Both the position numbers and the translations under genes were made by a program. The notes beneath the pieces are model-generated. The model was not told the DNA's origin. It worked only from the letters and a program-made list of their open reading frames with translations, and ran no database searches. Below, in pieces: positions 1 to 16,131 of a DNA stretch of 64,000 nt. How positions within the stretch are numbered: the first letter of the stretch is position 1; the number at the start of each line of letters is the position of its first letter. The stretch comes from Rahnella variigena (GTDB lineage: Bacteria > Pseudomonadota > Gammaproteobacteria > Enterobacterales > Enterobacteriaceae): NCBI RefSeq assembly GCF_003610915.1, contig NZ_NSDJ01000001.1, positions 1,674,001 to 1,738,000 on the forward strand, given 5' to 3'.

Positions 1-1410
1 ATTGCCCGTCAGGCTGCTCAAGATGCGAAAAGCCTGGAGTTTCTGAATCAGCAGTTACCGCTTGTACGAAGCGAACTGAACGATGCTGAGGATAAACTTA
101 ATGTGTACCGCCGTCAGAAGGATTCGGTTGATTTATCGCTAGAAGCAAAATCGGTACTTGAGCAAATCGTTAATGTAGACAGCCAGCTTAATGAACTGAC
201 GTTTCGCGAGGCCGAGATTTCGCAACTTTATACGAAAAGCCATCCGACGTATAAGGCCCTGCTGGAAAAACGTCAGACCTTGGTGCATGAGCGAGATAGC
301 CTAAATAAACGTGTGACGGCAATGCCGGCTACTCAACAAGAAGTAGAGCGTTTGAGTCGAGATGTTGACTCTGGCCGGGCTATTTATATGCAGTTGCTCA
401 ATCGTCAGCAAGAACTCAGTATCGCCAAATCCAGTGCAATCGGTAATGTGCGTATTATCGACAACGCAATAACACAACCTAAACCGGTGAAACCAAGAAA
501 AACCCTGGTTGTTTTGATCGGTATTGTTGCGGGGCTATTTGTTTCTTTTTCACTCGTTTTACTGAAAGTTTTTGTGCGTCGTGGAATTGAATCTCCGGAG
601 CAGCTGGAAGAAGTTGGCGTCAGCGTTTATGCCAGTGTCCCGCTTTCCGAGTGGTTAAATAAGAAAAATAAACCAGAGAGATCAAATAGAAGTGGGGGGA
701 GAAAAAGGCAATCTGAAATCAAATTCCTGGCAGTAGAAAACCCAGCAGACTTAGCCATTGAAGCCATCCGTAGTCTGCGAACGAGCTTGCATTTTGCCAT
801 GATGGAAGCAAGTAATAATATTCTGATGATCTCCGGTTCAACCCAAAACGCGGGTAAAACATTTATTGCCAGTAATCTGGCAGCGGTCATTGCCCAGTCA
901 GGTAAAAAAGTACTTTTTATTGATGCAGACATGCGAAAAGGGTATTCACATAAACTTTTCAGATTTACAGGAGAGCTAGGGTTGTCGGATATTCTTTCCG
1001 GAAAAATAAATATTAATGAAATAGAGAAACATGTACCGGAGATCGGCATTGATTTCATCCCAAGAGGAAAGTTACCGCCTAACCCTTCAGAATTACTGAT
1101 GCATAAACGCTTAAGTTCAATGCTTGACTGGGCTTCAGATAACTATGATTTGGTTATTATCGATACACCGCCTATTTTAGCCGTAACAGATGCAGCCATT
1201 ATTGGTCGTTGCGCTGGCACATCATTGCTGGTTGCTCGTTATGGAACAAACACAGTTAAAGAAGTAGAGGTCAGTATCAGGCGTTTTGAGCAAGTGGGTG
1301 TGCAAATAAAAGGTTGTATTCTCAATGGCGTGCTTAAAAAGGCGAGTAGCTACTACGGTTACGGTTATAGTCAATATGATTACTCTTACGCTGATAACAA
1401 AGAAAAATAG
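1..1410 (+). CDS. wzc: Wzc-type tyrosine autokinase / polysaccharide co-polymerase, 5' end cut off
   Basis: Inner-membrane bacterial tyrosine kinase that controls chain length and export of Wzy-dependent exopolysaccharide with Wza (exporter) and Wzb (phosphatase). The frame is open from base 1, so only the last 469 residues are here: a coiled-coil periplasmic part, a transmembrane helix at about nt 505-564, and a cytoplasmic kinase domain. The kinase domain shows Walker A (GSTQNAGKT), Walker A' (VLFIDADMR) and Walker B (VIIDTPP). The C-terminus carries a cluster of seven tyrosines (nt 1351-1389), the autophosphorylation tail of this family. wza and wzb are expected just upstream of the window. 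The downstream genes are all polymer-assembly genes, which supports the role. Whether it is closest to Wzc, AmsA or Etk cannot be decided from the fragment. Confidence 0.93.
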   Translation: MARQAAQDAKSLEFLNQQLPLVRSELNDAEDKLNVYRRQKDSVDLSLEAKSVLEQIVNVDSQLNELTFREAEISQLYTKSHPTYKALLEKRQTLVHERDSLNKRVTAMPATQQEVERLSRDVDSGRAIYMQLLNRQQELSIAKSSAIGNVRIIDNAITQPKPVKPRKTLVVLIGIVAGLFVSFSLVLLKVFVRRGIESPEQLEEVGVSVYASVPLSEWLNKKNKPERSNRSGGRKRQSEIKFLAVENPADLAIEAIRSLRTSLHFAMMEASNNILMISGSTQNAGKTFIASNLAAVIAQSGKKVLFIDADMRKGYSHKLFRFTGELGLSDILSGKININEIEKHVPEIGIDFIPRGKLPPNPSELLMHKRLSSMLDWASDNYDLVIIDTPPILAVTDAAIIGRCAGTSLLVARYGTNTVKEVEVSIRRFEQVGVQIKGCILNGVLKKASSYYGYGYSQYDYSYADNKEK

Positions 1411-1421
1411 ATTTTAGATCT

Positions 1422-1449
1422 CCGTCTGGGAGACAAGTTTCTCAGACGG
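1422..1449 (+). terminator. Hairpin after wzc, possible attenuator
   Basis: A 7-bp perfect inverted repeat CCGTCTG (1422-1428) / CAGACGG (1443-1449), twelve bases after the wzc stop, with extra inner pairing. No T-tract follows, so it is not a standard terminator. A stem-loop at the same place in E. coli group 1 capsule clusters attenuates expression of genes after wzc and is overcome by RfaH; the same role here is inference. Confidence 0.4.
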
Positions 1450-1517
1450 AATGCTCATCATTAAATAAGTGACCCTGTTAATAAATATGCAGCACCTTCG
1501 AAGAAATGGGAAATAAA

Positions 1518-2666
1518 ATGAAAATAATGATATTCAACACATTGTATTTCCCCTACAGAATTGGTGGCGCCGAGGTTTCGGTTCAGCTCCTTGCCGAAGA
1601 ACTCGCGCTGCAAGGACATACAGTGAGAGTGGTGAGTCTTACGGAAGGGGATGAAAGGGAAGTGACTACGCTTAATGGGGTAGAGCTTGTTAAGTTACCG
1701 TTATCCAATATCTATTGGCCATTTACGAATGAAAATAAAAGCTTTTTAAAAAAGGCTATCTGGCATTTGTTCGATTATTTGAATGTGAAAATGTATTTTA
1801 AGGCTTTGAAAGAAATCCAGATATTTGCTCCTGATATTGTCCATACAAATAATATATCAGGATTTTCAGTGCTTTTATGGAAGGCTGTAAAGAAATGCAA
1901 GGTCAGACTCATACATACTTCAAGAGACTATTATCTTTTTCATCCTAATAGCACATTATTTAGTCATGGTCAGAGGATGAGTTTAAAAGGTGAAAGTATT
2001 TTATTTTGGTCTGCAATAAAGAGAGTATATGACCGACATGTTGATGAGTATGTCGGCATTAGTCAATTTATCAAAAAGCAGCATTGCGATAACGCCTTTT
2101 TTAAAAGAGCGGGACACCATGTTATTTATAATGCTGTCTCAAAAATAGAAGCAGATAAAGTTAAGGATATTAAAAGAATAGGGTTCATCGGTAGGTTATC
2201 AACTGAAAAAGGATTTGATATCTTCTGTAATGTAGCGGGTCAGTATAAAAGAAAATATTCATTCATTGCTGCCGGTAACTTCGTCAATATTGAAGAGCAG
2301 CAATCACTAATGGAGTTGGCAAATAAATCTGATGTGACCCTGAAAGGTTTTATGAAACTGGACGATTTTCTGAATCAGGTTGATGCTGTCGTTCTTCCTG
2401 TCAGATGGGATGAACCCTTTGGGCGTACTGTGGTTGAATGTGTACTGGCTGATAAATTGGTTCTCACCAACCCGGTTGGGGCAATGACAGAGTTATCTAT
2501 GCTCCTGCCTAACATCATTATTACCGATAATATTGAACGTGACTTCGACGATAAAATAGCAACCGCTGAGATAAAATCCATCGACTCTTCGCTTATTGAG
2601 CGGTTTACACCCAGGGAAATAGCTAACCAATATCTCCGGGTTTATAACGGCAAATCGGGTGTATAA
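1518..2666 (+). CDS. GT4 family glycosyltransferase
   Basis: Predicted retaining GT-B glycosyltransferase, 382 residues, adding one sugar of the polysaccharide repeat unit on the cytoplasmic face of the inner membrane. The N-terminus (MKIMIFNTLYFPYRIGGAE) has the Gly-rich GGAE acceptor-side loop of GT4 enzymes. The C-terminal half has GRLSTEKGFD and the EX7E motif (EPFGRTVVE) that contacts the nucleotide sugar. The ATG at 1518 is chosen because GGGA precedes it by a good distance; an in-frame ATG at 1506 has only a badly spaced GAAG. The stop is one base from the next start. Sugar specificity cannot be read. The gene is AT-rich compared with manC. Confidence 0.85.
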   Translation: MKIMIFNTLYFPYRIGGAEVSVQLLAEELALQGHTVRVVSLTEGDEREVTTLNGVELVKLPLSNIYWPFTNENKSFLKKAIWHLFDYLNVKMYFKALKEIQIFAPDIVHTNNISGFSVLLWKAVKKCKVRLIHTSRDYYLFHPNSTLFSHGQRMSLKGESILFWSAIKRVYDRHVDEYVGISQFIKKQHCDNAFFKRAGHHVIYNAVSKIEADKVKDIKRIGFIGRLSTEKGFDIFCNVAGQYKRKYSFIAAGNFVNIEEQQSLMELANKSDVTLKGFMKLDDFLNQVDAVVLPVRWDEPFGRTVVECVLADKLVLTNPVGAMTELSMLLPNIIITDNIERDFDDKIATAEIKSIDSSLIERFTPREIANQYLRVYNGKSGV

Positions 2667-2667
2667 A

Positions 2668-3876
2668 ATGACAATGAAGGGGGTAGAGAAAAAGCTTATT
2701 GGACTAACGTTGTTACTTTTTATCATTTTTGAATGCTTGGCAGGACCACTTCGGATGGTCTTTCATATGGCTGGTGTCGAATTTTTATTTTCCATGCCAA
2801 AGCTCTTTATTTTACTGACTCAAGCCTTCTCGATAATATTGGTTTTGTATTATAGAAAAGTAACTGTAAATGGAATGATTGCTTCAGTAACTATATGCTA
2901 TTTGATTTTTATAAGCATGATGTCATCCCAACCGGCAGCAATATTTGTCGGTGTTTGGGCAATTCTTCCTCTGTTTCTGGGTTATCACGGGGCAAGAATA
3001 ATTATGTCAAATCTTAAGGAGAAAAAAACAAACCGTATTATAGTAATTATTTTTCTATTATCATGCTGTGGTGTTATTTGTAACGTGTTTTTCAACTACC
3101 CCTGGTATAACGTATCATATGAAATTGCCGGGATGGATGTTTCTTCCTCTCAGATAGGCAGCAGCGGTGGCTATACCCGATACGCTGGTTTTTTTAAGAG
3201 TTCTTTACAGGCATCCGCTAACGTATTAATTCTTCTTCTATATATTGTCTCAACCAGTAAAAGTAAAACCTTGATTGTTAGTTCATTTGTTTTTAGTGCA
3301 CTTGTAGCTTTATTAACCATATCTAAAACAATTTTTTTACTCCATATTATTCTCCTTCTCTACATTCTGGTGAAAGTTATTCCTGTCAAAGTTATATGGC
3401 GGATTACATTAGCCTGTGCTTTTATCTTTACAGTGTTTACGATAGGAAGTACCAACTATCATTTTAATGTAAGCAGGGATCCGATGCAGGTTATGTTATT
3501 AGCATCGCTGAATGATCGACTGACTAATACCTGGCCGGAAGGTGTTAATACTATCATCAGTAATGGAAACCTTTTCTTTGGTGGTGGAATGGGAACGATT
3601 GGAGTGGGATCAAAATTAGGGACAGGTGTCTATAATCCGGGTGATAGTATGTATCTTTATCTTATTGGTTCCGGTGGTTATCTGTTGGGATTCATTTTAT
3701 TATTTTGGGTTTTTTATCAATCAACAGTATTTAATAACGACAATGCGTGCAGGTATTTATCATTGCTGTTGATCGTTTTATGTTTGTTTGGGTTGTCAAT
3801 GACGGCTCCGGAGTATCCATTTATGGCGCTTTCCATGGGGTTTTTGATTAATTCAAGAATTTATAAGGCGTGTTAG
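2668..3876 (+). CDS. wzy: Wzy-like polysaccharide polymerase / O-antigen ligase family membrane protein
   Basis: A 402-residue protein made almost wholly of hydrophobic segments, about ten or more predicted transmembrane helices, with a larger hydrophilic loop near residues 115-170 as in Wzy/WaaL-type proteins. It is the only polytopic protein in the cluster besides the flippase, so by elimination it is the repeat-unit polymerase acting at the periplasmic face. Sequence identity among Wzy proteins is very low, so the call rests on topology and context. An in-frame GTG at 2659 overlaps the preceding gene; the ATG at 2668 has GGGTG upstream and is preferred. Strong A/T bias fits a horizontally exchanged polymer-specific gene. 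Confidence 0.75.
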   Translation: MTMKGVEKKLIGLTLLLFIIFECLAGPLRMVFHMAGVEFLFSMPKLFILLTQAFSIILVLYYRKVTVNGMIASVTICYLIFISMMSSQPAAIFVGVWAILPLFLGYHGARIIMSNLKEKKTNRIIVIIFLLSCCGVICNVFFNYPWYNVSYEIAGMDVSSSQIGSSGGYTRYAGFFKSSLQASANVLILLLYIVSTSKSKTLIVSSFVFSALVALLTISKTIFLLHIILLLYILVKVIPVKVIWRITLACAFIFTVFTIGSTNYHFNVSRDPMQVMLLASLNDRLTNTWPEGVNTIISNGNLFFGGGMGTIGVGSKLGTGVYNPGDSMYLYLIGSGGYLLGFILLFWVFYQSTVFNNDNACRYLSLLLIVLCLFGLSMTAPEYPFMALSMGFLINSRIYKAC

Positions 3877-3905
3877 AAATATTGAAGAAAAAGAGGAAGA
3901 TAAGG

Positions 3906-4898
3906 ATGGCAAGAATAATTTTTGATGCGCGTTGGATTGGTGAGCATGGGATCGGACGATTCGCAAATGAAGTGTCGAAACGCAATGAGGGATTTGTAAA
4001 AATAAAAAATGGTTTGAAACCAACAAGTCCTTTTGATGTTTTTTTTATCACTTTATATTTAGCATTCAAACGTGGGGTATACTTTTCACCGGGATATAAC
4101 TGTCCGTTATTCTTTTTAAACAGAAGTGTCATTACTATTCACGACTTGAATCATATAGATATAGAGCACAATAGTAGTTTTCTTAAGAAAATATATTATG
4201 AATTTGTGATGAAAAGAGCTTGTCAGAAATCGCTTAAAGTTCTGACAGTGTCGAATTTTTCAAAAAGAAGAATTTGTGAATGGGCAGGCATAAGTGATTC
4301 CAGGGTCCTGGTGGTTGGGAATGGTGTGTCGGAGGAATTTTTAAATACAGAGAGTAGGGTAACTAACTCTGAAGGTGAATACATTTTAGTTGTCAGTAAC
4401 AGAAAGAAACATAAAAATGAATTGAGAATATTGTCAGCTTTTCACATGGCTAACATTCCGCCATCAGTAAAATTAGTCTTCACAGGGGATCCGGATGAAA
4501 GCCTGCAGAACGAAATTAAACGTACAAACTTGCAGGATAGAGTTGTTTTTAAAGGGCGCGTAGAGAACAGCGAACTGGCATCTTTATACAAAGAATCACT
4601 TTTTTTATTATTTCCCTCACTTTACGAAGGTTTTGGTCTTCCCGTCATTGAAGCAATGTCCAGTGGTACCGCTGTGATAACGTCCACCACCACCTCTTTA
4701 CCAGAAGTCGCAGGTGATGCAGCAATCCTTGTGGATCCTGAAAACACTGAGGAGATTGCGCTGGCAATAGGCAACCTTTATTACAATCCAGATTTGAAAA
4801 AGGAACTAATAGCAAAAGGTTTAATTCAGGCAAAAAAATTCACCTGGGAGAAAACGGCCGATCTGATAACGAATTGTTTGAATAACTTAAAAAAGTAA
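3906..4898 (+). CDS. GT4 family glycosyltransferase
   Basis: Predicted 330-residue GT-B glycosyltransferase for the exopolysaccharide repeat unit. The start (MARIIFDARWIGEHGIGRFA) resembles mannosyl/rhamnosyl-type GT4 enzymes with the glycine-rich GIGRF loop. The donor site shows YEGFGLPVIEAMSSGTAV, including the EX7E pair, and NRKKHKN stands where GT4 enzymes have their Arg/Lys phosphate contacts. An upstream GTG (3870) overlaps the wzy stop, but the ATG at 3906 has AGGA eight bases upstream and gives the conserved N-terminus, so it is preferred. Donor and acceptor are unknown. Confidence 0.85.
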   Translation: MARIIFDARWIGEHGIGRFANEVSKRNEGFVKIKNGLKPTSPFDVFFITLYLAFKRGVYFSPGYNCPLFFLNRSVITIHDLNHIDIEHNSSFLKKIYYEFVMKRACQKSLKVLTVSNFSKRRICEWAGISDSRVLVVGNGVSEEFLNTESRVTNSEGEYILVVSNRKKHKNELRILSAFHMANIPPSVKLVFTGDPDESLQNEIKRTNLQDRVVFKGRVENSELASLYKESLFLLFPSLYEGFGLPVIEAMSSGTAVITSTTTSLPEVAGDAAILVDPENTEEIALAIGNLYYNPDLKKELIAKGLIQAKKFTWEKTADLITNCLNNLKK

Positions 4899-4933
4899 AC
4901 TGCACCTCATAGGCTATTTTAGTAAGGTAGATA

Positions 4934-5980
4934 ATGAACAGGATGATGCTTTATATAAAAATGTGTTGTGTGTTTATATTCATTCACTCGTCATACGGAA
5001 TGTGTACAATTATCGGAGCAGGAACGCACTTTCAAGGTTATCGTGGAGAAAGCAGTATATATTTAGAAAAAATCAAAGAAATGGGATTTACATCATTTCG
5101 TGAGGACTATTCCTGGTCAAACGTTGAAAGAACTAAAGGCGTTTTTTCAGTAAGTGATAATATAAAAAAAACTGACGCTGCATTTTTAAATGCCCAGAGT
5201 AAAGGTCTCAGTCCTATCTTGATCCTTGATTATGGAAATAAATTGTATAATAACGGTGATTATCCACGAAATCAGGAATCGATTGATGATTTCGTTAGAT
5301 ATGCAAGTTGGGTTGCGTCAAGATTTAAGGGGAAAGTGAAATATTACGAAATTTGGAATGAATGGACTATTGGTACTGGAATGACCCGCTATCGTGACAA
5401 TATACCTTCTGGTGAGGTCTATTTTAATCTCGTTAAGGCAACAAGCAAGGCAATAAAACGTATCGACCCCAATGCAATAATCTTAGCCGGCGGATTCAAT
5501 CCCCTGGAACAAAGAGCCAAATATCTGAATATTACGGATGTGGTTTGGTTTGAGCAGTTGCTAAAATTGGGGATTCTGGATTATGCCGATGGGATTTCAA
5601 TCCACACTTATTCGTATCTGAATGGTCGCCGGGACTTAAGAACGACAAAAGGTAATTTAGATTTTATTGATGAGTTTTACGCTGATAGCCAAAAAATAGC
5701 AGGGAGGGATTTCCCCTTATACATTACTGAAGTTGGAGTGACAAACTATACCGGACCTGGGGGAATGAGCCAGCAAGAATCGGCCGATTATATAAAAAAT
5801 TATATTGAGGATGCAAAGTCTCGTTCATACATAAAAGGTGTCTGGATTTATGACCTCATTGATGATGGCAAAGACAAGAGCAAGAGGGATTATAATTTTG
5901 GCCTCCTGAACAATGATCTCTCGCCCAAGTTAGTCGCTCCTGTCATTACTGAGTTACTTAATAGAAATAATCAAAAATGA
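4934..5980 (+). CDS. Secreted clan-A (GH39/GH5-like) glycoside hydrolase in the polysaccharide cluster
   Basis: Predicted 348-residue periplasmic or secreted (beta/alpha)8-barrel glycosidase. Residues 1-22 form a hydrophobic signal-like segment ending near SSYG. The acid/base glutamate sits in YYEIWNEW (E143) and the nucleophile in YITEVG (E266), about 120 residues apart as in clan GH-A; HTYSY (about 224-228) lies on the barrel rim. Similar enzymes inside exopolysaccharide operons (for example PslG of Pseudomonas) cut their own polymer to aid release or limit length. It lies between two glycosyltransferases with a good ribosome site (AAGG), so it is probably co-transcribed. Substrate unknown. 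Confidence 0.8.
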   Translation: MNRMMLYIKMCCVFIFIHSSYGMCTIIGAGTHFQGYRGESSIYLEKIKEMGFTSFREDYSWSNVERTKGVFSVSDNIKKTDAAFLNAQSKGLSPILILDYGNKLYNNGDYPRNQESIDDFVRYASWVASRFKGKVKYYEIWNEWTIGTGMTRYRDNIPSGEVYFNLVKATSKAIKRIDPNAIILAGGFNPLEQRAKYLNITDVVWFEQLLKLGILDYADGISIHTYSYLNGRRDLRTTKGNLDFIDEFYADSQKIAGRDFPLYITEVGVTNYTGPGGMSQQESADYIKNYIEDAKSRSYIKGVWIYDLIDDGKDKSKRDYNFGLLNNDLSPKLVAPVITELLNRNNQK

Positions 5981-6047
5981 TGGTGAAGGTTATAATGTAT
6001 TATTAATTAGTATTTATGTAATTAATTAATGAGAGTAAAGAGGTAAT

Positions 6048-7265
6048 ATGAGGATTTTGTTTTTTGTATATAAATTCCCTGTGCTTTCTGAAACGTTTAT
6101 CCTCAACCAAATAGCGTATTTCATTAACAAGGGTTGCGACGTAAGCATAGTTTCCGTTTTTCCCGGTGAGCTGGATGCTGAACACCAGGTTATCAAAAAA
6201 TTTGATTTGATAGATAAAACGCGATATTTACTTGAACGAGAACCAAAAGGTAAGATCTCCAGGGTTTTTGCGCGACTTAAAGGACTGCTCCCTTGTGTTC
6301 TTTCCTCTTGTGCCATTAAGAGAATGAATGTCTCTAAATATGGCTATTATGCGAAAACGTTGATGCTCCCGTATATATTGTCAAAAAATAAGCCTCCCAT
6401 AGAGGCTGATGTTATCGTCTCTCACTTTGGCACCACTGCAGTATTGGCAAATCAACTAAGGAAGCTTGATTTTCTTAAAGGTAAACTAGCTGCAGTGTTT
6501 CATGGTAATGACATTTCACAAACTCGTACTCTTGATGTTTTTAAGGATGATTATAAAAATCTTTTTGATAATGCGGAATTCATCCTGCCAGTAAGTCAGT
6601 TATGGGCTAATAAAATCAAAGCCGTTTCAGGTCATGAGAAAAATATTCATGTTGTCAGGATGGGGATCAGTGTTGACAAATTCTCGTTTCGACCTCGATC
6701 CGTTTTGGGTAATCCCATTCGCTTACTCTCTATCGCAAGGCTTACAGAGAAAAAAGGGATATCAGTTGCCATCACTGCATGTTCATTTTTGAAGAAAAGA
6801 AATATTCATTTTCGCTACACCATTATCGGTGATGGTCCGTTACGCAATGACCTTGAGTTGCAGGTTTCTGAACTTGAATTGAACGAGCAGGTGATCTTCT
6901 CAGGCGCGCAGACGCAGGAAACTGTTACTGACTACTTAAATATCTCGGATATTTTTTTATTACCTTCAGTGACAGCCGCGGATGGCGATATGGAAGGAAT
7001 ACCGGTGGCATTGATGGAGGCCATGGCTATGGGTATCCCGGTAATTTCAACTTTTCACAGCGGGATCCCTGAATTGATAGAAAATGGAATATCTGGATTT
7101 TTGGTCAAAGAACATGATGCCGAAGGTATTGCAAATATCGTCTCAGATATTATAAAAGATCCCAGTGTTTTATCTGATATTTGTCAGAATGCAAAAATGA
7201 AAATTGACAATGAATATGATCAGGATAAATCATATTCAAGAATGCTTACTATTCTATCGAATTAG
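6048..7265 (+). CDS. GT4 family glycosyltransferase, WcaL/AmsK-like
   Basis: Predicted 405-residue glycosyltransferase. The opening FPVLSETFILNQI is the signature of the WcaL (colanic acid) and AmsK (amylovoran) group, which act late in repeat-unit assembly. The donor domain contains RLTEKKG and EGIPVALMEAMAMG with the EX7E pair. AGAGGT precedes the ATG. It is directly followed by a pyruvyl transferase and a flippase, and the same trio amsJ-amsK-amsL occurs in Erwinia, which supports a role close to completion of the repeat unit. The exact linkage is not predictable. Confidence 0.85.
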   Translation: MRILFFVYKFPVLSETFILNQIAYFINKGCDVSIVSVFPGELDAEHQVIKKFDLIDKTRYLLEREPKGKISRVFARLKGLLPCVLSSCAIKRMNVSKYGYYAKTLMLPYILSKNKPPIEADVIVSHFGTTAVLANQLRKLDFLKGKLAAVFHGNDISQTRTLDVFKDDYKNLFDNAEFILPVSQLWANKIKAVSGHEKNIHVVRMGISVDKFSFRPRSVLGNPIRLLSIARLTEKKGISVAITACSFLKKRNIHFRYTIIGDGPLRNDLELQVSELELNEQVIFSGAQTQETVTDYLNISDIFLLPSVTAADGDMEGIPVALMEAMAMGIPVISTFHSGIPELIENGISGFLVKEHDAEGIANIVSDIIKDPSVLSDICQNAKMKIDNEYDQDKSYSRMLTILSN

Positions 7266-7290
7266 CCATTAAATATTAATCGGTGATAAA

Positions 7291-8307
7291 TTGAAAATTT
7301 ACTATTATAAATCTGCGCATGGGAATTTTGGGGACGACCTTAACGCATGGATCTGGGATGCATTGCTTCCCGGCTTTTTTGATGATAACGAAAATGTCAG
7401 GGTATCAGGGATTGGCACCATTATTACTTCTGCCATGCCTCCGGCTAAAAAATGGATAGTCTTCTCGAGTGGTGTCGGTTACGGCTATCCGCCAGTCAAC
7501 TTTGGCGACAGCTCCTGGGAAACACTCTGCGTTCGGGGTCCGCTCAGTGCTGAGATTTTAGGATTGCCGAAAGACAAATTTATTACTGATGGCGCTGCCC
7601 TTTTAAACACGCTCGCTGAGTTTCAACCACTCTCAGATGCTGAACGCAAAGGGGTAATTTTTGTTCCTCATCATCACGCGCTTGTCACCGGGCAATGGGA
7701 AAAGGTGTGCCAGCAGGCTGGGATTGAGTTCGTGAATCCTCAATCGGATGCAAAGACGGTTATCCAAAAAATCAGACATGCAAAACTGGTGCTGGCGGAT
7801 GCTATGCATGCGGCCATTATTGCTGACGCTCTGCGCGTACCCTGGATTCCCTTAATTACTTCCTCACAGATCAATACATTCAAATGGTTAGACTGGACTC
7901 AGACCATAAATACCCCCTACCGGCCAACTGTTCTGGGAAGCAGTTCCCTGCGTGAGTATTTACGCGATAAATCTCTGTGTACCTATGGAGAAAAGTATTT
8001 CTTACCTGATTCAGATGTAGAGTTCGCTGTTAAATATTTCAGAAAACAGCGAGAGCTAAAGAACAAAAAGTGGTGGGAGAAGTATCAGCAGTTAACTCAG
8101 TTAGCGTTGCATCGAATTCCAAACAAAGCTATCAGGACAGTTGAAGAGCGTTTTAATCTGAATTTGAATAACAGATTTATTGACCAGGCATCCAGCGTGC
8201 TTCTTGATGCGAAGTCCAGACCGGGTTTTCTAAGCGAAGATTTTAAATTTACCAATAATGTAGAGCGCTTATTAAACGGCATCGACAGGCTTTCAAAATG
8301 CAAATGA
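7291..8307 (+). CDS. Polysaccharide pyruvyl transferase
   Basis: Predicted enzyme (338 residues) that transfers a ketal pyruvate from phosphoenolpyruvate to a sugar of the lipid-linked repeat unit, giving the polymer negative charge; the family includes ExoV, GumL, AmsJ and WcaK. Seen here: the N-terminal HGNFGDDLN motif, CVRGPLSAE, DGAALL, and the C-terminal AKLVLADAMHAAIIADALRVP block, all in family order. The start codon is TTG at 7291 with a GGTGA-type ribosome site; no better in-frame start lies nearby. The last ~80 residues are charged and possibly helical. The acceptor sugar is unknown. Confidence 0.85.
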   Translation: MKIYYYKSAHGNFGDDLNAWIWDALLPGFFDDNENVRVSGIGTIITSAMPPAKKWIVFSSGVGYGYPPVNFGDSSWETLCVRGPLSAEILGLPKDKFITDGAALLNTLAEFQPLSDAERKGVIFVPHHHALVTGQWEKVCQQAGIEFVNPQSDAKTVIQKIRHAKLVLADAMHAAIIADALRVPWIPLITSSQINTFKWLDWTQTINTPYRPTVLGSSSLREYLRDKSLCTYGEKYFLPDSDVEFAVKYFRKQRELKNKKWWEKYQQLTQLALHRIPNKAIRTVEERFNLNLNNRFIDQASSVLLDAKSRPGFLSEDFKFTNNVERLLNGIDRLSKCK

Positions 8308-8325
8308 TATTCTAAGGACGCTAAA

Positions 8326-9789
8326 TTGAACGCTCAAGCGAGAAACCAGAAGCCGAGTATAATTTCAGGCGCTATCTGGTCTGTTCTGGATAATACAGTT
8401 TCACAAGTCATAACATTTATTATATTCATAATATTAGCGAAGTTGCTGACACCCAGTATATACGGCATGCTCAGTGTATCTTTGCTTGTTACGCAGTTTT
8501 TTCGCAATGTTATATTCGATAGTATTGCGACATCGATCGTGAGAATGAAATCACCGACACCTGTAGACTATAATTCTGCATTTTTTTTATGTTTCTCTTT
8601 ATCTGTACCCGCATTCTTGATTGTTTTCTTTTTCGCCCCGTTTATTGAGGCGTACATGAAAGTACCGGAGCTGGCCAATGTCATCCGGGGAACAGGCATT
8701 ATTATTGTCGTCAGCGGATTGAGCCGGACACACGAAGCCTGGTTAACGCATAATATGATGTTCCGCCCTTTAGCGATAAGGTCAATCTGCTCTATCTCTA
8801 TCGGGGGGGCTGTCGGAGTGGTGCTTGCCTGTAAAGGGTATGCTGTTACGAGTCTGGTGGTACAGCAAGTTGTCACTTCACTGATTTCTCTGGTCGTGCT
8901 GTGGGTGACGACACCCTGGAAGCCAAAAATGAAGATTTCGAAGGATTCCATTCGCGAGTCTGTAGGGTTTTCTAAGCATGTGGCTCTGAGCAATATTACT
9001 AACTTCGCCAATCAAAATAGTGATGTTTTCTTTATTACCTACTTTCTTGGAACTGCGGGTGCCGGTGTTTATTCGGCGGGTAAACGCATCGTAAACACCC
9101 TGAACACCGTTCTCTCATCCGCATTAATGCGGGTTTCATTACCCGCATTTACCCGATATAAAAACGATTTAAATGAATTTGGTAAAAAGTATCTGCAAGC
9201 AACCTATTTTACCGTTCTGGTAACAGCGCCTGCTTTTGTTGGTCTTAGTGCATTATCTCATGATATTACTTTTCTGCTGCTGGGACAGAAATGGATGCCA
9301 TCTGTACCCATAATGCAAATTGTCAGTGCTGTAGGGTTTGTTACGTCGATTGGATATTACAATCATTCCGTCATGTTTGCCCGTGATAAACCTGAATGGC
9401 AAGCCAGATTAACACTGCTTTATGCAATAAGTAATGTTTTGGTATTCTATATTTTTGTTCGATATGGTTTGATTGCTACTGCACTGGTATTTTCCATCCG
9501 TACAATACTTCTTTACCCTGTTTCCGCATGGTGTGCATTAACACTCTTAAATTTAACATTCAGACAATACATAAGAGAGATTATTGTTCCCATTATATGC
9601 GCCGGGGGTATGTGTATTATTCTGATGGGTATGCAGGAGTTTACATTATTAAATGAATCCTGGGCTGGAATAGCAGTAAAAATTACCGTTGGTGCGATAT
9701 CCTATTTTACTCTTATTTTTACTATCACTTCTAAGAGTAGAAAAGCAATGATACTTTCACTCGCGGGAAAGATATTTAAGAGGGGCTAG
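8326..9789 (+). CDS. wzx: Wzx-type lipid-linked repeat-unit flippase (WzxC/AmsL-like, MOP superfamily)
   Basis: A 487-residue polytopic inner-membrane protein with about 12-14 hydrophobic segments, close to the length of E. coli WzxC (492). The N-terminus, with SGAIWSVLDNTVSQVITF followed by LAKLLTPSIYGMLSV, is typical of the polysaccharide-transport branch of the MOP superfamily. Expected role: moving undecaprenyl-diphosphate-linked repeat units to the periplasm for polymerisation. The start codon is TTG (8326) with AAGGA nine bases upstream. It is spaced 18 bases from the pyruvyl transferase and 8 from the next GT2 gene, so it sits firmly inside the operon. Confidence 0.9.
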   Translation: MNAQARNQKPSIISGAIWSVLDNTVSQVITFIIFIILAKLLTPSIYGMLSVSLLVTQFFRNVIFDSIATSIVRMKSPTPVDYNSAFFLCFSLSVPAFLIVFFFAPFIEAYMKVPELANVIRGTGIIIVVSGLSRTHEAWLTHNMMFRPLAIRSICSISIGGAVGVVLACKGYAVTSLVVQQVVTSLISLVVLWVTTPWKPKMKISKDSIRESVGFSKHVALSNITNFANQNSDVFFITYFLGTAGAGVYSAGKRIVNTLNTVLSSALMRVSLPAFTRYKNDLNEFGKKYLQATYFTVLVTAPAFVGLSALSHDITFLLLGQKWMPSVPIMQIVSAVGFVTSIGYYNHSVMFARDKPEWQARLTLLYAISNVLVFYIFVRYGLIATALVFSIRTILLYPVSAWCALTLLNLTFRQYIREIIVPIICAGGMCIILMGMQEFTLLNESWAGIAVKITVGAISYFTLIFTITSKSRKAMILSLAGKIFKRG

Positions 9790-9797
9790 ATGATTTT

Positions 9798-10787
9798 ATG
9801 GAAACTCAATCAGCATTAGTTAGCATCCTTATTCCTCTTTTCAACTCTGAAAAGTATATCAGGAAGGCCCTGGAGTCTGTTGCCACTCAAACCTATTCTA
9901 ATATAGAAGTGGTTATTGTCGATGATTTTTCGAGCGATTCTTCAGTGGCAATTGTTGAGAGTTTTTTTATTGAGCACGATCATATCCGTCGTAGCATTTC
10001 TCATAATGTTAAAAATGAAGGGGTTTCTTTCACACGGAATAAGTTAGTGGAACATGCAAAAGGGGACTTTATTTGTTTTTTAGATTCTGATGACTACTTT
10101 GAGCATGATGCGATAAGTTATTTAATGAACATTGTAGTAAGTAATAATACGGATATAGGCCAGTGCTTATACTACTCTGAAACACCCGAGGGTGTCCAAC
10201 GCGGTACGGTAAATCAATTTTCTCCCAATAAGATTCTGAAGGGTAAAGATGCTGTTTTTTCTATGCTGGAAAATGAAATAACAGGTTTCCTTTGGCATAA
10301 GATATTTAAACGAGATCTTTTCCTGAATGTTCATTTTGACACTACGTTACCCGTTTTTGAAGACTATCTTGTCATTATGACGATGTTTCTCAATGGTGCT
10401 GACATCTCATTTGGCAGTGAACCCAAGTATCATTATGTACAGCATGTTTCCTCATTGACAAAAAAATCCTACCGAAAAGCACTAGACAGACTGCAATACC
10501 TGGAAATTACCAAGTCACTGATAAAGCCTTTAATTATCTCAGAATCAGACAAGCTGAGGATAATAAAGCATGAGTATATTGTGGCTTTGATGGTTTTTAT
10601 TAATGCAATTAAATTTGGTGCTCCGGTAAATGAAGTTGCAGAAATCCAGAAACGCATCAATGTTTCATGTTTATTCAGGTTAAAACCGCAACTTAATTAT
10701 AAAAAATTTTACTCCATACTCATGATTAGAATTTCTCCAGTATTGCTCTACTTTTCCCTTAAAACAGTTTTTAAAATTAAAGCATAA
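9798..10787 (+). CDS. GT2 family glycosyltransferase
   Basis: Predicted inverting GT-A glycosyltransferase, 329 residues. The N-terminal domain shows VSILIPLFNSEKYIRKALES, VVIVDDFSSDSS and the DXD-type FLDSDDYFEHD that binds metal and nucleotide sugar. GFLWHKIFKRDLF and the downstream FEDYLV match the second half of the GT2 catalytic domain. A weak AGGGG lies eleven bases before the ATG. It is the only GT2 enzyme in the cluster and the last gene of the AT-rich block; the following 113 bases contain a hairpin and T-run. Donor and linkage unknown. Confidence 0.85.
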   Translation: METQSALVSILIPLFNSEKYIRKALESVATQTYSNIEVVIVDDFSSDSSVAIVESFFIEHDHIRRSISHNVKNEGVSFTRNKLVEHAKGDFICFLDSDDYFEHDAISYLMNIVVSNNTDIGQCLYYSETPEGVQRGTVNQFSPNKILKGKDAVFSMLENEITGFLWHKIFKRDLFLNVHFDTTLPVFEDYLVIMTMFLNGADISFGSEPKYHYVQHVSSLTKKSYRKALDRLQYLEITKSLIKPLIISESDKLRIIKHEYIVALMVFINAIKFGAPVNEVAEIQKRINVSCLFRLKPQLNYKKFYSILMIRISPVLLYFSLKTVFKIKA

Positions 10788-10803
10788 ATCATTCACAATT
10801 TGT

Positions 10804-10859
10804 CAGTGCTCATTCTGAATGATAATTCAGTTATTCCTCTGAGCACTGAATTGTTTTTT
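10804..10859 (+). terminator. Nested inverted repeat with T-run before manC
   Basis: Outer 8-bp stem CAGTGCTC (10804-10811) / GAGCACTG (10841-10848), inner 6-bp stem CTGAAT (10815-10820) / ATTCAG (10825-10830), then a T-run at 10854-10859. It could be a weak terminator or attenuator dividing the glycosyltransferase block from manC-manB. Confidence 0.45.
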
Positions 10860-10900
10860 AATGATTGCATCTTATCTGACTTTTTCCTGAGACGAATATT

Positions 10901-12322
10901 ATGATCCTTCCAGTAATCATGGCTGGCGGTACCGGTAGCCGTTTGTGGCCGATGTCTCGTGAGCTTTATCCAAAACAATTTCTTCGTCTGCATGGCGATA
11001 ATTCAATGTTGCAGGAAACCGTCTGCCGTTTAAAAGGGCTGGATGTTTCTGTGCCGCTGGTTATTTGTAATGAAGAGCATCGTTTTCTCGTTGCCGAACA
11101 ACTGCGGCAAATAAATCAGCTCAAAGATAATATTATCCTCGAGCCTGTCGGGCGCAATACGGCGCCTGCGATTACGCTGGCTGCGCTCAGTGCTATCGAC
11201 AAAGGTTTAGACCCGCTTTTGCTGGTGCTTGCTGCCGACCATGTTATCGAGTCTCCTGCGGCCTTTCACCAGGCCGTACAGAATGCTATTCCGTTCGCGG
11301 AACAGGGGAAGCTGGTGACCTTCGGTATCGTGCCGACCGGTCCGGAAACCGGATACGGTTATATACAGAGGGGAACCAAATTGTGCACCGACGCAGATCC
11401 TGTTTTTCGGGTGCAGCGTTTTGTCGAGAAGCCGGATCTTGCTACCGCGATGCAATATCTGGAAAGCGGTGAGTATTACTGGAACAGCGGTATGTTTTTG
11501 TTCCGTGCGAAGCGTTTTCTGCAAGAGATGACGAAATTCAGGCCGGACATTGTTGATGCCTGTCTTAAAGCCATTGAAACCTCACAGGCCGATGAGCAGC
11601 AGGATTTTATTCGTGTTGATAAAGAATCATTTATTTCCTGTCCCGATGAGTCTGTTGATTATGCGGTGATGGAAAAAACCACTGATGCGATTGTCGTTCC
11701 GTTAGATGCGGGCTGGAATGATGTGGGTTCCTGGTCGGCTCTTTGGGAAGTGAATAATAAAAGCATCGAGGGTAATGCCCTCAGTGGCGATGTATTTACT
11801 CATAATGCGACGAATTGTTATATCAATACCGATGAAAAATTGGTGGCCGCTATTGGTGTAGATAATCTGGTGATTGTTAATACTAAAGATGCCGTTTTAG
11901 TGATTGATAAAAACCAGGTGCAGGACGTTAAAAAAGTCGTTGAATATTTAAAAAGTCATAAACGCCGGGAATATCGCGTGCATCGTGAATCTTATCGTCC
12001 ATGGGGGCGGAACGATAATGTTGTGACGGCGCCCCGTTATCATGTGAATAGAATAACGGTAAAACCGGGCGGACAGTTCTCATTACAAATGCATCATCAC
12101 CGGGCTGAACACTGGGTAATTCTTTCGGGTACGGCAAGAGTTATTCTGGAAGATAAAGATTATCTGCTGACTGAAAATGAATCCACATTTATACCCATTG
12201 GTGCTCATCACAGATTAGAGAATCCCGGGAAAATACCTCTTGAACTTCTGGAAATACAATCAGGCTCATATCTGGAAGATGACGATATTATTCGTATAAA
12301 AGATCACTATGGTCGCTGTTAA
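10901..12322 (+). CDS. manC: Mannose-1-phosphate guanylyltransferase / mannose-6-phosphate isomerase
   Basis: Bifunctional enzyme (473 residues; E. coli CpsB 478) making mannose-1-P into GDP-mannose, with a C-terminal cupin domain for mannose-6-P isomerisation. The N-terminal nucleotidyltransferase motif [19 protein letters not shown] (about residues 9-27) and FVEKPD are intact; the C-terminal [12 protein letters not shown] motif carries the metal-binding residues of the type II isomerase. manB follows after 14 bases. No gmd or fcl lies in the window, so GDP-mannose is probably used as such by a mannosyltransferase here. Its GC content is visibly higher than that of the preceding block, like the core genome. 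Confidence 0.95.
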
Positions 12323-12336
12323 TTTTGGGGTGAAAT

Positions 12337-13716
12337 ATGTCAGATACATTATCTTGCTTTAAAGCGTACGATATTCGCGGTGAATTAGGTGTTGAATTAA
12401 ACGAAGATATTGCTTATCGCATAGGACGAGCGTACGGCGAATATTTAAAGCCAAATAGAATGGTATTAGGCGGTGATGTTCGTTTAACCAGTGAAGCATT
12501 GAAACTTGCTCTGGCGAAGGGTTTACAGGATGCGGGGACTGATGTTGTTGATATTGGCGTGAGCGGCACGGAAGAAATCTATTTTGCGACTTCCTATCTC
12601 AGCCTTGATGGTGGTATTGAAGTCACCGCCAGCCATAATCCAATGAATTATAATGGTATGAAACTGGTTCGTGAGAACTCCCGTCCAATCAGTGGCGATA
12701 CCGGTTTACGCGAGATTCAGGCACTGGCCGAAGCTAATAATTTCGCACCAGCAGAAAAGGCTATACGTGGCACTTATGAAAAAGCCTCTGTGCTGGAAGC
12801 GTATGTTGATAAGTTGCTCAGCTATGTCAATTTAGAGAATTTCACCCGTCCCTTGAAACTGGTATTTAACTCCGGTAATGGCGCTGCCGGTCACGTTGTG
12901 GATGCTATCGAGCAGCGTTTTATTGCTGCCGGAGCACCGGTAGAATTTATCAAAATTCACCACGAGGCTGACGGAACATTCCCCAACGGCATCCCTAATC
13001 CGTTATTGCCTGAGTGCCGCCAGGACACCACCAATGCCATCATTAAACACCAGGCAGATATGGGGATCGCGTTTGATGGTGATTTTGACCGGTGTTTTCT
13101 GTTTGATGATGCCGGTAATTTCATCGAAGGGTATTACATCGTGGGTCTGCTGGCCGACGCGTTCCTCGAGAAATACCCCAGCTCGCGTATCATTCATGAC
13201 CCGCGTCTGAGCTGGAATACCATTGATATTGTCACCGGTGCGGGCGGAGTGCCTGTGATGTCTAAAACCGGTCATGCGTTTATTAAAGAGCGTATGCGCC
13301 AGGAAGATGCGGTCTATGGTGGCGAGATGAGCGCCCATCATTACTTCCGCGATTTCTATTATTGCGACAGTGGTATGATCCCCTGGTTGCTGGTCGCTGA
13401 ATTACTGCATGTTAAAGATAAGTCCCTGAGGCAACTGATTAATGACCGGATCACCGCTTACCCTGCTTCAGGTGAAATAAACAGTTACCTGCAAAAGCCG
13501 AAAGAGTCTATTGACCGTGTATTAGCGATGTATGAAGGAGAGGCGTTGAACATCGACCATACGGACGGAATAAGTCTGGAGTTTGATGAGTGGCGTTTCA
13601 ATCTCCGTAGTTCTAATACTGAACCGGTTGTTCGACTGAATGTGGAATCCCGTGCTAATACAAAATTAATGCAGGAACAAACCAGGAAGATTCTTTCCAT
13701 CCTTCGTAGCATGTAA
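12337..13716 (+). CDS. manB: Phosphomannomutase
   Basis: Converts mannose-6-P to mannose-1-P for ManC; 459 residues against 456 for E. coli CpsG. The catalytic serine lies in [12 protein letters not shown] (S99), the metal-binding loop is DGDFDRC (about 247-253), and the sugar-binding [10 protein letters not shown] and phosphate-binding RSSNTEP motifs are present, so the enzyme looks complete. The gene forms a pair with manC. A short hairpin ATGGG (13759) / CCCAT (13773) followed by a T-rich stretch lies between manB and the next glycosyltransferase and may weaken read-through. Confidence 0.95.
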
Positions 13717-13800
13717 TTATTGAAAATATCTTATTTAAGTGAGTGGTAATAACTCGCTATGGGTTTATTTTGCCCATTTTTATTTTATAAGGTTTAGATT

Positions 13801-14955
13801 ATGTCACATAATGTGAGTGTGGGGATTGTTGCTGACTGGCTGGTGACATTTGCCGGGGCCGAAAAAGTCATTGCGGAATTTATTAAATTATACCCGGACG
13901 CAGATATCTATTCTGTTGTTGATTTTCTTTCTGATGAGTCCCGCAAAAAATTCTACGGTAAAGAAGCGACGACCTCTTTTATTCAGCGCTTACCTTTTGC
14001 TAAAAAGAAATATCAGCAATATCTGCCTTTAATGCCGCTGGCTATCGAACAACTTGATGTGACCGGACATGACATAGTGCTTTCCAGCAGTCATGCGGTC
14101 GCCAAGGGCGTGCTGACCGGTCCTGACCAGTTGCACATCAGCTATGTGCATTCTCCGATCCGCTATGCCTGGGATTTTCAGCACCAGTATCTGCGTGAGG
14201 CAGGGCTGAATAAGGGGCTGAAAGGCAATCTTGCCCGCTGGTTCCTGCATAAAATCAGGATGTGGGATTACCGGACGGCTAATGGGGTGGATCACTTTAT
14301 TGCCAATTCCCAGTTTATTGCCCGCCGGATTAAGAAAGTCTATGGCCGCGACGCGGATGTTATTTATCCGCCTGTCGATGTAGAGCGTTTTACATTGCAG
14401 GAGAACAAAGAGGATTTCTATTTTACCGCTTCGCGCATGGTGCCCTATAAACGTATCGATCTGATTGTGGAAGCATTCAGTCAGATGCCGGATAAGAAGC
14501 TGGTGGTCATCGGAGACGGCTCTGAAATGGGCAAGATTAAGGCCAAAGCGGGCAGTAACATTGAAATACTGGGCTATCAGCCTGACGATGTGATGCAAGA
14601 CTATATGCGACGCGCAAAGGCTTTTGTTTTCGCTGCCGAAGAAGATTTTGGGATCACGCCTGTCGAAGCACAGGCCAGCGGAACGCCGGTTATTGCCTTT
14701 GGCAAAGGCGGCGTTCTGGAGACCATCAGACCTTACGGTGAAAAGCATGCAACAGGGGTCTTTTTCGCTGAGCAAACAGCGGCGTCTCTGATAAAGGCCG
14801 TGCGTCACTTCGATACCATTAAAGACTCAATTCTTCCTCTGGACTGTCGTGAAAATGCATTAAAGTTTTCCGGGGAAAGATTTCATAATGAACTGGACGA
14901 ATATATCAAAACAAAATGGCATGATTTTAATGAACGCAAACGCATCGTTTATTAA
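13801..14955 (+). CDS. GT4 family mannosyltransferase, WbaZ-like
   Basis: Predicted 384-residue glycosyltransferase of the WbaZ-like GT4 group, which uses mainly GDP-mannose. Supporting motifs: VADWLVTFAGAEKV at the N-terminus, SYVHSPIRYAWD, VIYPPVDVERF, SRMVPYKRID, and EEDFGITPVEAQASGTPVIAFGKGG with the EX7E pair. The position directly after manC-manB agrees with a mannose donor, but that is inference. It is the last gene of the cluster; a strong terminator follows at 15091. Its composition is like manB rather than the AT-rich block. Confidence 0.87.
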   Translation: MSHNVSVGIVADWLVTFAGAEKVIAEFIKLYPDADIYSVVDFLSDESRKKFYGKEATTSFIQRLPFAKKKYQQYLPLMPLAIEQLDVTGHDIVLSSSHAVAKGVLTGPDQLHISYVHSPIRYAWDFQHQYLREAGLNKGLKGNLARWFLHKIRMWDYRTANGVDHFIANSQFIARRIKKVYGRDADVIYPPVDVERFTLQENKEDFYFTASRMVPYKRIDLIVEAFSQMPDKKLVVIGDGSEMGKIKAKAGSNIEILGYQPDDVMQDYMRRAKAFVFAAEEDFGITPVEAQASGTPVIAFGKGGVLETIRPYGEKHATGVFFAEQTAASLIKAVRHFDTIKDSILPLDCRENALKFSGERFHNELDEYIKTKWHDFNERKRIVY

Positions 14956-15090
14956 CATTCCCAATACTGAATCTGCCATTGATGGTTTGCATACAAATGA
15001 TCCTCGCTTTTGCATTCATCATGAAAAGCAGTGTCAGCGGCTGAAATTGTACGGATAACGCCCGTCGCTGTTGCTTCATAAGTAAGAAAA

Positions 15091-15126
15091 AGCCGGAGAA
15101 TGCGCTGACATTCTCCGGCTTTTTTT
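15091..15126 (+). terminator. Rho-independent terminator of the polysaccharide cluster
   Basis: Perfect 12-bp stem AGCCGGAGAATG / CATTCTCCGGCT with a CGCTGA loop, followed by six T. About 135 bases after the last glycosyltransferase gene. Confidence 0.88.
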
Positions 15127-15158
15127 GCTTTCTAAACGGGCTTGAAGTTTCAGTAGAG

Positions 15159-15216
15159 CAGAAAGCAAAAAACCCGCCATAGGCGGGTTTCTTTAAATAG
15201 GGTGCCCGGACTCGGA
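15159..15216. repeat. 58-bp direct repeat, copy 1 (terminator plus tRNA-Phe 3' end remnant)
   Basis: Near-identical to 15330-15387 at an offset of 171 bp. Read on the minus strand it consists of the last 15 or so bases of tRNA-Phe (ending CCGAGTCCGGGCACC), a short spacer, and the tRNA terminator hairpin (AACCCGCC / GGCGGGTT at 15171-15189). The rest of a second tRNA is missing. It could be a decayed tandem tRNA-Phe copy or an attachment-site scar at the tRNA 3' end. Confidence 0.9.
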
Positions 15217-15310
15217 CTAATGCCGCAGGCATTTGAACAACGGCTTTGCCGTTGGCCCGCAGGGCGAGCCTGCTAAGGCGAGTCATCGAACGAAGTTCGA
15301 TGGAGAGTCC
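15208..15310. repeat. 103-bp string of mini-hairpins closed by GGACTC/GAGTCC
   Basis: The ends pair as GGACTC (15208-15213) / GAGTCC (15305-15310). Inside lie five hairpins in a row: AATGCC-GCA-GGCATT (15219-15233), CAACGGC-TTT-GCCGTTG (15238-15254), GCCC-GCA-GGGC (15255-15265), GCCT-GCTA-AGGC (15268-15279) and CATCGAAC-GAA-GTTCGATG (15284-15302). Three have C(GNA)G tips, the most stable DNA triloops known. The left arm of the closing stem is part of the tRNA 3' end copy. An open frame through it (14927-15286, minus) is probably accidental. Confidence 0.85.
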
Positions 15311-15329
15311 ATGATCTTTTATAAGAACT

Positions 15330-15387
15330 CAGAAAGCAAAAAACCCGCCATAGGCGGGTTCTTTTAAAGATGGTGCCCGGACTCGGA
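15330..15387. repeat. 58-bp direct repeat, copy 2 (within the intact tRNA-Phe locus)
   Basis: Partner of 15159-15216. This copy belongs to the complete tRNA: it covers the tRNA 3' end and the terminator hairpin. The copies diverge only in the spacer between hairpin and tRNA end (GGTTTCTTTAAATAG against GGTTCTTTTAAAGAT). Confidence 0.9.
15337..15360 (-). terminator. Rho-independent terminator of tRNA-Phe
   Basis: Read on the minus strand: 8-bp stem AACCCGCC / GGCGGGTT with a 3-base loop (15342-15360) and a T-run, ten bases after the tRNA CCA end. A second copy lies at 15166-15190. Confidence 0.85.
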
Positions 15388-15446
15388 ATCGAACCAAGGA
15401 CACAGGGATTTTCAATCCCTTGCTCTACCGACTGAGCTATCCGGGC
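15371..15446 (-). tRNA. pheV: tRNA-Phe (anticodon GAA)
   Basis: A 76-base tRNA on the minus strand, beginning GCCCGGATAGCTCAG and ending in an encoded CCA. The acceptor stem GCCCGGA/TCCGGGC, D-arm, anticodon arm with TTGAAAA and T-arm GGTTCGATTCC are all readable, and it matches E. coli tRNA-Phe nearly base for base. In E. coli pheV is also the neighbour of speC and is a frequent integration site of genomic islands, which makes the partial duplicate next to it relevant. Confidence 0.97.
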
Positions 15447-15485
15447 AACGGGGCGCATTAAACCGTATTGGGCATGTGTCGTCAA
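15447..15485 (-). promoter_or_regulatory. tRNA-Phe promoter with GC-rich discriminator
   Basis: Read on the minus strand: -35 TTGACG (15480-15485), 17-bp spacer, -10 TTTAAT (15457-15462), then a GCGCCCC discriminator just before the tRNA 5' end. GC-rich discriminators are the mark of promoters under stringent (ppGpp/DksA) control, as expected for a stable RNA. Confidence 0.75.
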
Positions 15486-16131
15486 CGGCTTTTTGTGACA
15501 ACGGTGGTGTTCGTCACCTGAATGATGCTTTTTACGACGATTTGTCGATTTAACTGCCGGAATCTGCGGTTTGCCTGAAATTCACAGGCAAAATCCCATG
15601 CCGGACGGTGTCGTATTTTGTAAGAAATTCGCGCAATTTACAGGGTTGAACGGGGGTCTAAAAGATGCCATTATTGCGCCGATTTATTAAACAACTCTGT
15701 TCCCGTTTTCACGCGACAGCTCAAGAGGGTTGCGGCATGGCTGGTTTATCACATCGCGCTTTTTATAAGTGCATAAAAAATCTGATGATGATCTCCGGGT
15801 GCTGTAAACACCACGATTTCAGCTTTTCTCCTTTTGCAGTCTCTTTCATGCGGTAAGGCTACCGTTTGTCCGCTGTTAGGCATTATTAAAAACAGAGCGT
15901 CATCCACAGGGCAATTCTCTGATTTTACTGTTGTCTATCAGACGTGGCCGGGTCTGAAACTCGATTTGTCACCACTTTGCCTCACCGGCATTGTCCTGTC
16001 GCACTCGATATCTTGCTTAGCCAACGTCATTTGCCGGGCCGGACTCTGCGCGCAATTGCTCTATGACGTAAGAACCTGCTCATTGCCGTGCCATCTGGCA
16101 CACCCTCTTACTTAACCGTTTGAGAGTCTGA
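15486..16131 (+). other. Long leader region upstream of ornithine decarboxylase
   Basis: About 650 bases without a recognisable gene. Contents: a possible 63-codon frame at 15665-15856 (MPLLRRFIKQLCSRFH...) preceded by GGGGG, a second frame at 15834-16115 with a TTG start, two minimal start-stop frames (ATG CGG TAA, ATG ACG TAA), a C-rich stretch, and a small hairpin GTGCC-ATCT-GGCAC (16088-16101) just before the speC ribosome site. I looked for a SpeFL-type ornithine-sensing leader peptide and did not find its conserved residues. None of these frames is supported enough to call as a gene. Confidence 0.5.

Follow-up and report, generated by a model that had tools for sequence, protein, structure and literature searches.

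A tRNA-linked repeat with an inverted core behind a Rahnella tRNA-Phe gene, probably a trailer RNA with a rebuilt tRNA-like stem

tRNA-linked repeats and the element behind tRNA-Phe

The tRNA-linked repeats (TLRs; rtT or RttR of E. coli) were described in 1978, and the consulted sections of a 2021 paper state that they have no known function (PMC8144298). The same sections give 22 TLRs at ten loci for E. coli K-12, and describe a TLR as ending in the same 18-19 bp with which the upstream tRNA or 5S gene ends (PMC8144298). The published role of the tyrT TLR as an RNA in starvation is reported there as withdrawn (PMC8144298). TLRs linked to 5S genes lie between dual terminators and are transcribed and processed, and for them the repeated end has been proposed to be a processing signal (PMC8144298, consulted sections). 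Binding of CsrA or Hfq by tRNA-linked TLRs was not predicted by the algorithm of those authors, with CsrA probability scores below 0.01 for the other 19 TLRs (PMC8144298, same sections). CsrA-type GGA motifs were noticed by us in the arms.

In eleven stretches of K-12, picked by position, 15 units were found at 29 tRNAs (Tyr 4, Lys 5, Ser 2, Arg 3, Pro 1), while the pheV and pheU stretches gave none. The tyrT unit, annotated as RttR in NC_000913.3, has the layout described below; it starts 8 nt after tyrV and stops at the end of the tail. The lysT operon has five units and the argQ operon three, placed after tRNA genes or between them; the RefSeq annotation displayed for these regions (780000-783000 and 2815500-2820000) does not list them as features. 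Since lysT and argQ units sit between tRNA genes, they must be transcribed.

Does the element behind tRNA-Phe belong to this class? The window (the whole stretch of 64,000 nucleotides of Rahnella variigena DNA that was analysed) has, in the 5' to 3' order of its minus strand, a tRNA-Phe gene, a terminator, a spacer, a copy of the tRNA 3' end and a second terminator. The features are as follows.

15371..15446, minus strand: tRNA-Phe(gaa) (ARAGORN; Rfam RF00005, 69.6 bits)
15200..15370, minus strand: whole TLR unit, 171 bp, from the tRNA end to the end of the tail copy
15338..15364, minus strand: terminator 1 (first hairpin copy), a 27-nt copy of the terminator 2 hairpin
15305..15310, minus strand: 5' arm of the TLR, complementary to the tail of tRNA-Phe; minus-strand sequence GGACTC
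15285..15301, unstranded: core hairpin, loop TTC on the tRNA-sense strand, which is GAA on the plus strand
15268..15279, unstranded: core hairpin with a 4-base loop (helix 3), compensatory changes in the helix among relatives
15255..15265, unstranded: core hairpin C(GCA)G on the plus strand
15238..15254, unstranded: core hairpin CAACGGC-TTT-GCCGTTG on the plus strand (helix 5), compensatory changes in the helix
15219..15233, unstranded: core hairpin C(GCA)G on the plus strand (helix 6), compensatory changes, yet 82% of cells paired
15201..15216, minus strand: tail, a copy of the tRNA-Phe 3' end without the final A of CCA (16 nt, the same as 15372-15387)
15167..15193, minus strand: terminator 2 (second copy)

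The original prediction described a 58-bp repeat at a 171-bp offset around a folding spacer, and this is real. The repeat search gives 15159-15216 and 15330-15387 as two 58-nt copies of the tRNA-Phe 3' end with its terminator, which share 93% identity and are offset by 171, and the folds beat shuffled sequences both as RNA (15159-15370, z = -7.7) and as DNA (15202-15315, z = -4.5), with 0 of 200 shuffles equally stable in either case. The 103-bp unit closed by GGACTC and GAGTCC (plus strand, 15208-15213 and 15305-15310), the string of five hairpins and the C(GNA)G tips were also borne out. The tips C(GCA)G and C(GAA)G are on the plus strand, antisense to tRNA-Phe, and one closing arm is supplied by the tRNA remnant, as had been said. 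The GGACTC/GAGTCC closure is present in the DNA centroid, and the tail is paired otherwise in the DNA minimum-energy fold; in the RNA minimum-energy fold of 15159-15370 the closure is absent and the two terminators pair mutually. Terminator 1 forms its hairpin when the unit is folded alone, and a consensus scan for terminators lists terminator 2 and leaves terminator 1 unlisted. A simple consensus scan of 15000-15700 gave no antisense promoter.

By its architecture the element is nearly certainly a TLR. Its tail repeats 17 nt of the tRNA 3' end with one mismatch, slightly under the 18-19 of the consulted text (PMC8144298), it lies directly downstream of the tRNA in the same orientation, and its core is related to other TLR cores, six of nine Phe cores being recognised by profile on the opposite strand. 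The element is of the TLR or rtT type and hence not new in kind. The sole tail mismatch is at the last base (CACCC against CACCA in the tRNA). The match is 17/17 in Klebsiella and other copies; other Rahnella copies end in CACCC like the window, so CCA is not required. As for the neighbourhood, genes of glycosyltransferase or sugar-nucleotide type (by eye) reach up to the TLR, and G+C is 0.36-0.48 in positions 1-15000 of the window and about 0.47-0.54 past 16000. Positions 1-15000 are possibly a polysaccharide region beside tRNA-Phe.

Distribution and constraint on the hairpins

The original prediction took the hairpin string for a possible element that uses tRNA ends, and the string does recur across genera at tRNA-Phe. 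A 26-base pattern, with the arm, the first stem and base 3 of the first loop set in advance, matched 96 stretches of the genome collection. Among the 80 of these listed by name are at least 22 named Enterobacterales genera and one uncultured Enterobacterales record, and the sequence is therefore not unique to this locus; uniqueness would have spoken against the proposal. Two stretches labelled Chryseobacterium are also among those listed, which we take for contamination. The 96 stretches contain 135 matches, with up to four in one Serratia stretch, so that the unit number varies. Of the 135, 99 have a called tRNA no more than 700 nt upstream, and this tRNA is always Phe; among the remaining 36, a tRNA-Phe tail is found 46-50 nt upstream in 30. 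That places 129 of 135 matches behind a tRNA-Phe 3' end or its copy, in agreement with the original prediction, and five of the last six are at the start of a stored stretch. At the settings used, no similar DNA was found in E. coli genomes and phages. The plasmid collection gave five Klebsiella records, one of which is 5.4 Mb and thus of chromosome size.

Within the same genome, 73 distinct contexts of tRNA plus downstream sequence were scanned, and three more TLR places were found, namely two tRNA-Pro genes with two tandem units each and one tRNA-Lys. The Rfam model RF00391 marks these three places and misses the window element. The second tRNA-Phe locus of this genome was observed to have a truncated TLR, with about 36 nt of the 5' part of the spacer left. 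For a wider view, 28 tRNA-Phe loci were read in 14 Rahnella genomes (own included, two loci each). A complete TLR is present in 9, an internally deleted one in 1, only the 5' part in 3 and a remnant of the 3' part in 1, while in 14 loci, read by eye, the tRNA is not directly followed by a TLR. The presence of the TLR at tRNA-Phe varies between Rahnella species.

Are the hairpins maintained? For the covariation analysis, 51 of 76 distinct tRNA-Phe units were chosen by hand, mostly one per stretch. Pairing holds in 95.9% of cells, and both-sided changes occur in 12 of 35 pairs, amounting to 76 such cells versus 16.0 in shuffles; none of 500 shuffles attains the observed pairing and both-sided-change values. 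These compensatory changes contradict the view of hairpins free of constraint, which had been named as fatal to the element idea. Sliding the partners drops the pairing to 21-39%, a control that was favoured since the structure was drawn from one aligned sequence. The number of further pair types in the 51 units was not above shuffles (279/500). The closing stem is invariant in 5 of 6 pairs and the first hairpin in 7 of 7, and these two are little informative, partly because the search pattern fixed them. With RNAalifold on 13 sequences the covariation term is small (-0.23; 2 of 21 pairs). Judging from the aligned sequences, the hairpin pairing of tRNA-Phe TLRs is constrained.

The arm, the tail and the inverted core

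Tail copies of 17-19 nt are found behind Tyr, Lys, Pro, Arg, Ser, Glu and Phe tRNAs. Why should a tRNA tail be repeated? An answer may lie in the 5' arm. The comparison covered 86 units, sorted into 13 groups according to tRNA and tail; the tRNAs upstream were those for Tyr, Lys, Pro (two types), Arg, Ser, Glu and Phe. The arm scores 22.05 on average against the tail of its own tRNA and 14.18 against swapped tails, and 0 of 20,000 permutations equal this. The own tail ranks first among the 13 groups in 7, second in 5 and third in 1. Moreover, arm and tail change together between genera. For example behind Arg(acg) the arm and tail are GGGAGGAT/ATCCTCCC versus AGGAAGAT/ATCTTCCT, and behind Ser(gga) GGGGGG versus GGCGGGG. 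By sequence comparison, the 5' arm in tRNA-linked TLRs thus pairs with the adjacent tRNA 3' end, rebuilding a tRNA-like stem. The arm pairs with T-stem and acceptor bases as one strand, a strand that is contiguous nowhere in the tRNA gene, so the unit appears to mimic the upper half of the tRNA. From known tRNA anatomy, we infer that the unit may be modelled as this upper half with the hairpin string replacing the T loop. The tRNA-specific arm would give a concrete and testable reason for the repeated tail, as one strand of the rebuilt stem.

Several limits of the arm comparison should be noticed. Pro arms are short, the window arm has 6 bp, Lys and Arg arms have mismatches, and a long Lys subtype pairs differently. 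The anchored version was designed after a looser one, in which about 100 nt were searched and the separation was weaker (swapped tails reached the own score in 5-84% by tRNA type, and in 0% for the single Glu unit), and its core-start motifs were chosen by hand. Some of the groups are closely related to each other in both versions. The non-Phe units came mostly from matches to RF00391, a model that may favour paired arms, and the Phe units from BLAST and the DNA pattern. The tRNA-Ala matches (4) and tail matches above 22 nt (one Gln, one Leu) were left out before the counts.

Another feature is the direction of the core. With a profile built from 74 other TLR cores, the six Phe cores recognised on the opposite strand, and on that strand only, score 12.6-14.1 bits in five cases and 0.5 in one, compared with 4.6 for the best of 900 shuffles; the other three of the nine had no match to this profile. 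The triloops show the same direction. On the tRNA-sense strand, 74 non-Phe units have 103 GNA, 1 TNC and 51 other triloops, and 9 Phe units have 0 GNA, 25 TNC and 9 other. All 76 Phe units have 7 GNA, 176 TNC and 33 other, or 7 GNA, 106 TNC and 27 other when the first hairpin, whose third loop base was fixed by the pattern, is left aside. Since a TNC loop reads as GNA on the complementary strand, the GNA loops keep to the strand of the core, which is now antisense to the tRNA. Behind 40 tRNA-Phe genes (40 of 72 matches), simple motifs of the forward core were absent apart from one lone 8-base match. The tRNA-Phe core is, as read from these alignments and counts, inverted relative to TLRs of other tRNAs. 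A role through the sense RNA alone would not predict this polarity of the GNA loops. The tRNA-Phe family, inverted wherever it was found and with GNA on the antisense strand, makes a natural experiment on an RNA versus a DNA role. In the literature searched, outside the subscription journals, no report was found of the arm-tail rule, of the inverted core or of the island joint described below.

Possible roles and relation to known families

What might such a unit do? We consider it fairly probable that this tRNA-Phe TLR of the rtT type, with its inverted core, gives a trailer RNA with a rebuilt tRNA-like stem whose tail is trimmed like that of a tRNA. Polymerase reading past terminator 1 would make the trailer and be stopped at terminator 2. 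In the trailer the arm and tail would form a stem that resembles the adjacent tRNA's T/acceptor stem and may be recognised by the enzymes that process tRNA 3' ends, so that the trailer is trimmed at the tail as a tRNA would be. Such trimming would extend the processing-signal proposal contained in the consulted part of PMC8144298. The hairpin string may stabilise the trailer or bind a protein, tandem duplication would multiply the units, and the core could flip through exchange between the short inverted repeats formed by arm and tail. The trailer RNA is supported by the tail copies at several tRNAs, the arm-tail match and its co-change, the compensatory changes in the hairpins, the extent of RttR, the transcription of the lysT and argQ units and the processing of the 5S-linked TLRs (PMC8144298, consulted sections). 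Against it are the antisense GNA loops, the CACCC tail, the irregular Lys, Arg and Pro arms and the half of the Rahnella loci that are free of TLRs, and also the arm not seen by eye in rrnB, the missing RtT listing and the withdrawal of the tyrT RNA role (PMC8144298, consulted sections).

The loop polarity makes a reading at the DNA level the main, if unlikely, rival. Here the core would act as a folded module of single-stranded DNA, the siting at tRNA tails would reflect insertion or copying, and the strand with the GNA loops would matter whichever way the module points. The polarity does follow the core instead of the tRNA, unit number varies as in the Serratia stretch, and presence varies between Rahnella species. 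RtT-like cores also occur with no tRNA nearby. They were noticed (model positions about 29-112) in 13 stretches of four relatives (G001, G002, G007, G011), all lacking a tRNA and with the cores enclosed by larger inverted repeats, the arms of which vary from one subfamily to another; by sequence these tRNA-free cores are a dispersed repeat sharing the TLR core. However, neither a transposase or recombinase nor a target-site rule was identified, the arm is specific to its tRNA, the constraint on the hairpins is like that on a functional RNA, and the units keep to the same tRNA over many genera. The attC-like or HUH-nuclease substrate put forward in the original prediction gained no support, and the element may or may not be a small non-autonomous mobile one. 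That TLRs are mainly DNA hairpin modules in a tailor-made copy of the tRNA upper half, and not small RNAs, is in our judgement unlikely, though worth keeping in view. If it were true, the conserved property would be the GNA triloops of one strand, kept in either direction of the module, the arm-tail stem would permit the flip of the core and the multiplication of units, and the tail copy would be an incidental spare landing site for islands that target tRNAs.

Could the arm-tail match be a mutational by-product? Quasipalindrome correction is an established route by which template switching could produce it, leaving a neutral repeat without selection, and the arms match the tails even where the tails have changed. 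But internal arm mismatches are kept in several genera (Lys CGTGAAGG; Arg GCACCAGGGAGG), and copying should erase them, which leaves this origin rather improbable.

The tail copy might also be kept as a decoy that diverts integrative islands from the tRNA and its terminator. Two relatives (G011 and G016) share one type of DNA end behind the tRNA-Phe gene, beside a tyrosine integrase gene (called by Pfam for the G016 protein), and in G011 an att-like tail with a TLR behind it comes about 44 kb later. In two others, of two genera (G006 and G014), that same island end adjoins the TLR tail copy and not the tRNA; a stretch similar by eye lies beyond it, and no integrase was found there. The tail copy can therefore probably serve as an attachment site, to judge from these joints, and we read this use as a consequence of TLRs and not their purpose. 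There are only two cases, and the other island end was not found within the 11.5 and 10.4 kb searched. Besides, nine stretches with an att-like tail preceded by foreign DNA (our own reading) indicate that islands join the tRNA as well, with the TLR left behind. As the arm and hairpins would be unexplained as well, a decoy function is very improbable. A decayed tandem tRNA or the scar of an excised island is hardly credible, although the repeat includes the tRNA end and terminator and the DNA beyond is lower in G+C, since the spacer, which in a scar should be unrelated between genera, is conserved across them in sequence and pairing, the same layout is found at several other tRNAs, and one tRNA only was detected, 15000-15600 giving no second tRNA match when E was allowed up to 5; neither accounts for the hairpin string, as the original prediction had argued.

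How does the element, taken as a source of trailer RNA, compare with known families? The small RNAs RrA, RrB and RrF of rrn operons are linked to 5S rRNA (PMC8144298, consulted sections), unlike the window element, and no tail-matching arm was seen by eye in the 5S-linked TLR of K-12 rrnB. RtT (RF00391) is alike in position and layout, its model spanning spacer and tail of the units that this genome has behind tRNA-Pro and tRNA-Lys; the window element was not listed at E up to 5 and does not reach the gathering cut-off of 45 bits. On the plus strand, 15208-15294 matches Aggregatibacter sRNA 22 (RF02902; E 4.6e-5 for 601 bases searched) with a similar hairpin order, but its 36.2 bits are below the cut-off of 39.8. 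This suggests, at the level of sequence, that a family of another order may have the same kind of core. The closest relatives are the TLRs of K-12 as the consulted sections present them (PMC8144298), which share the tail copied from the upstream tRNA 3' end, the place directly behind it, the tandem units and the hairpin core; as in rrn TLRs, terminators flank the unit. The window element differs from them in its place at tRNA-Phe, its inverted core and its imperfect tail of 16-17 nt.
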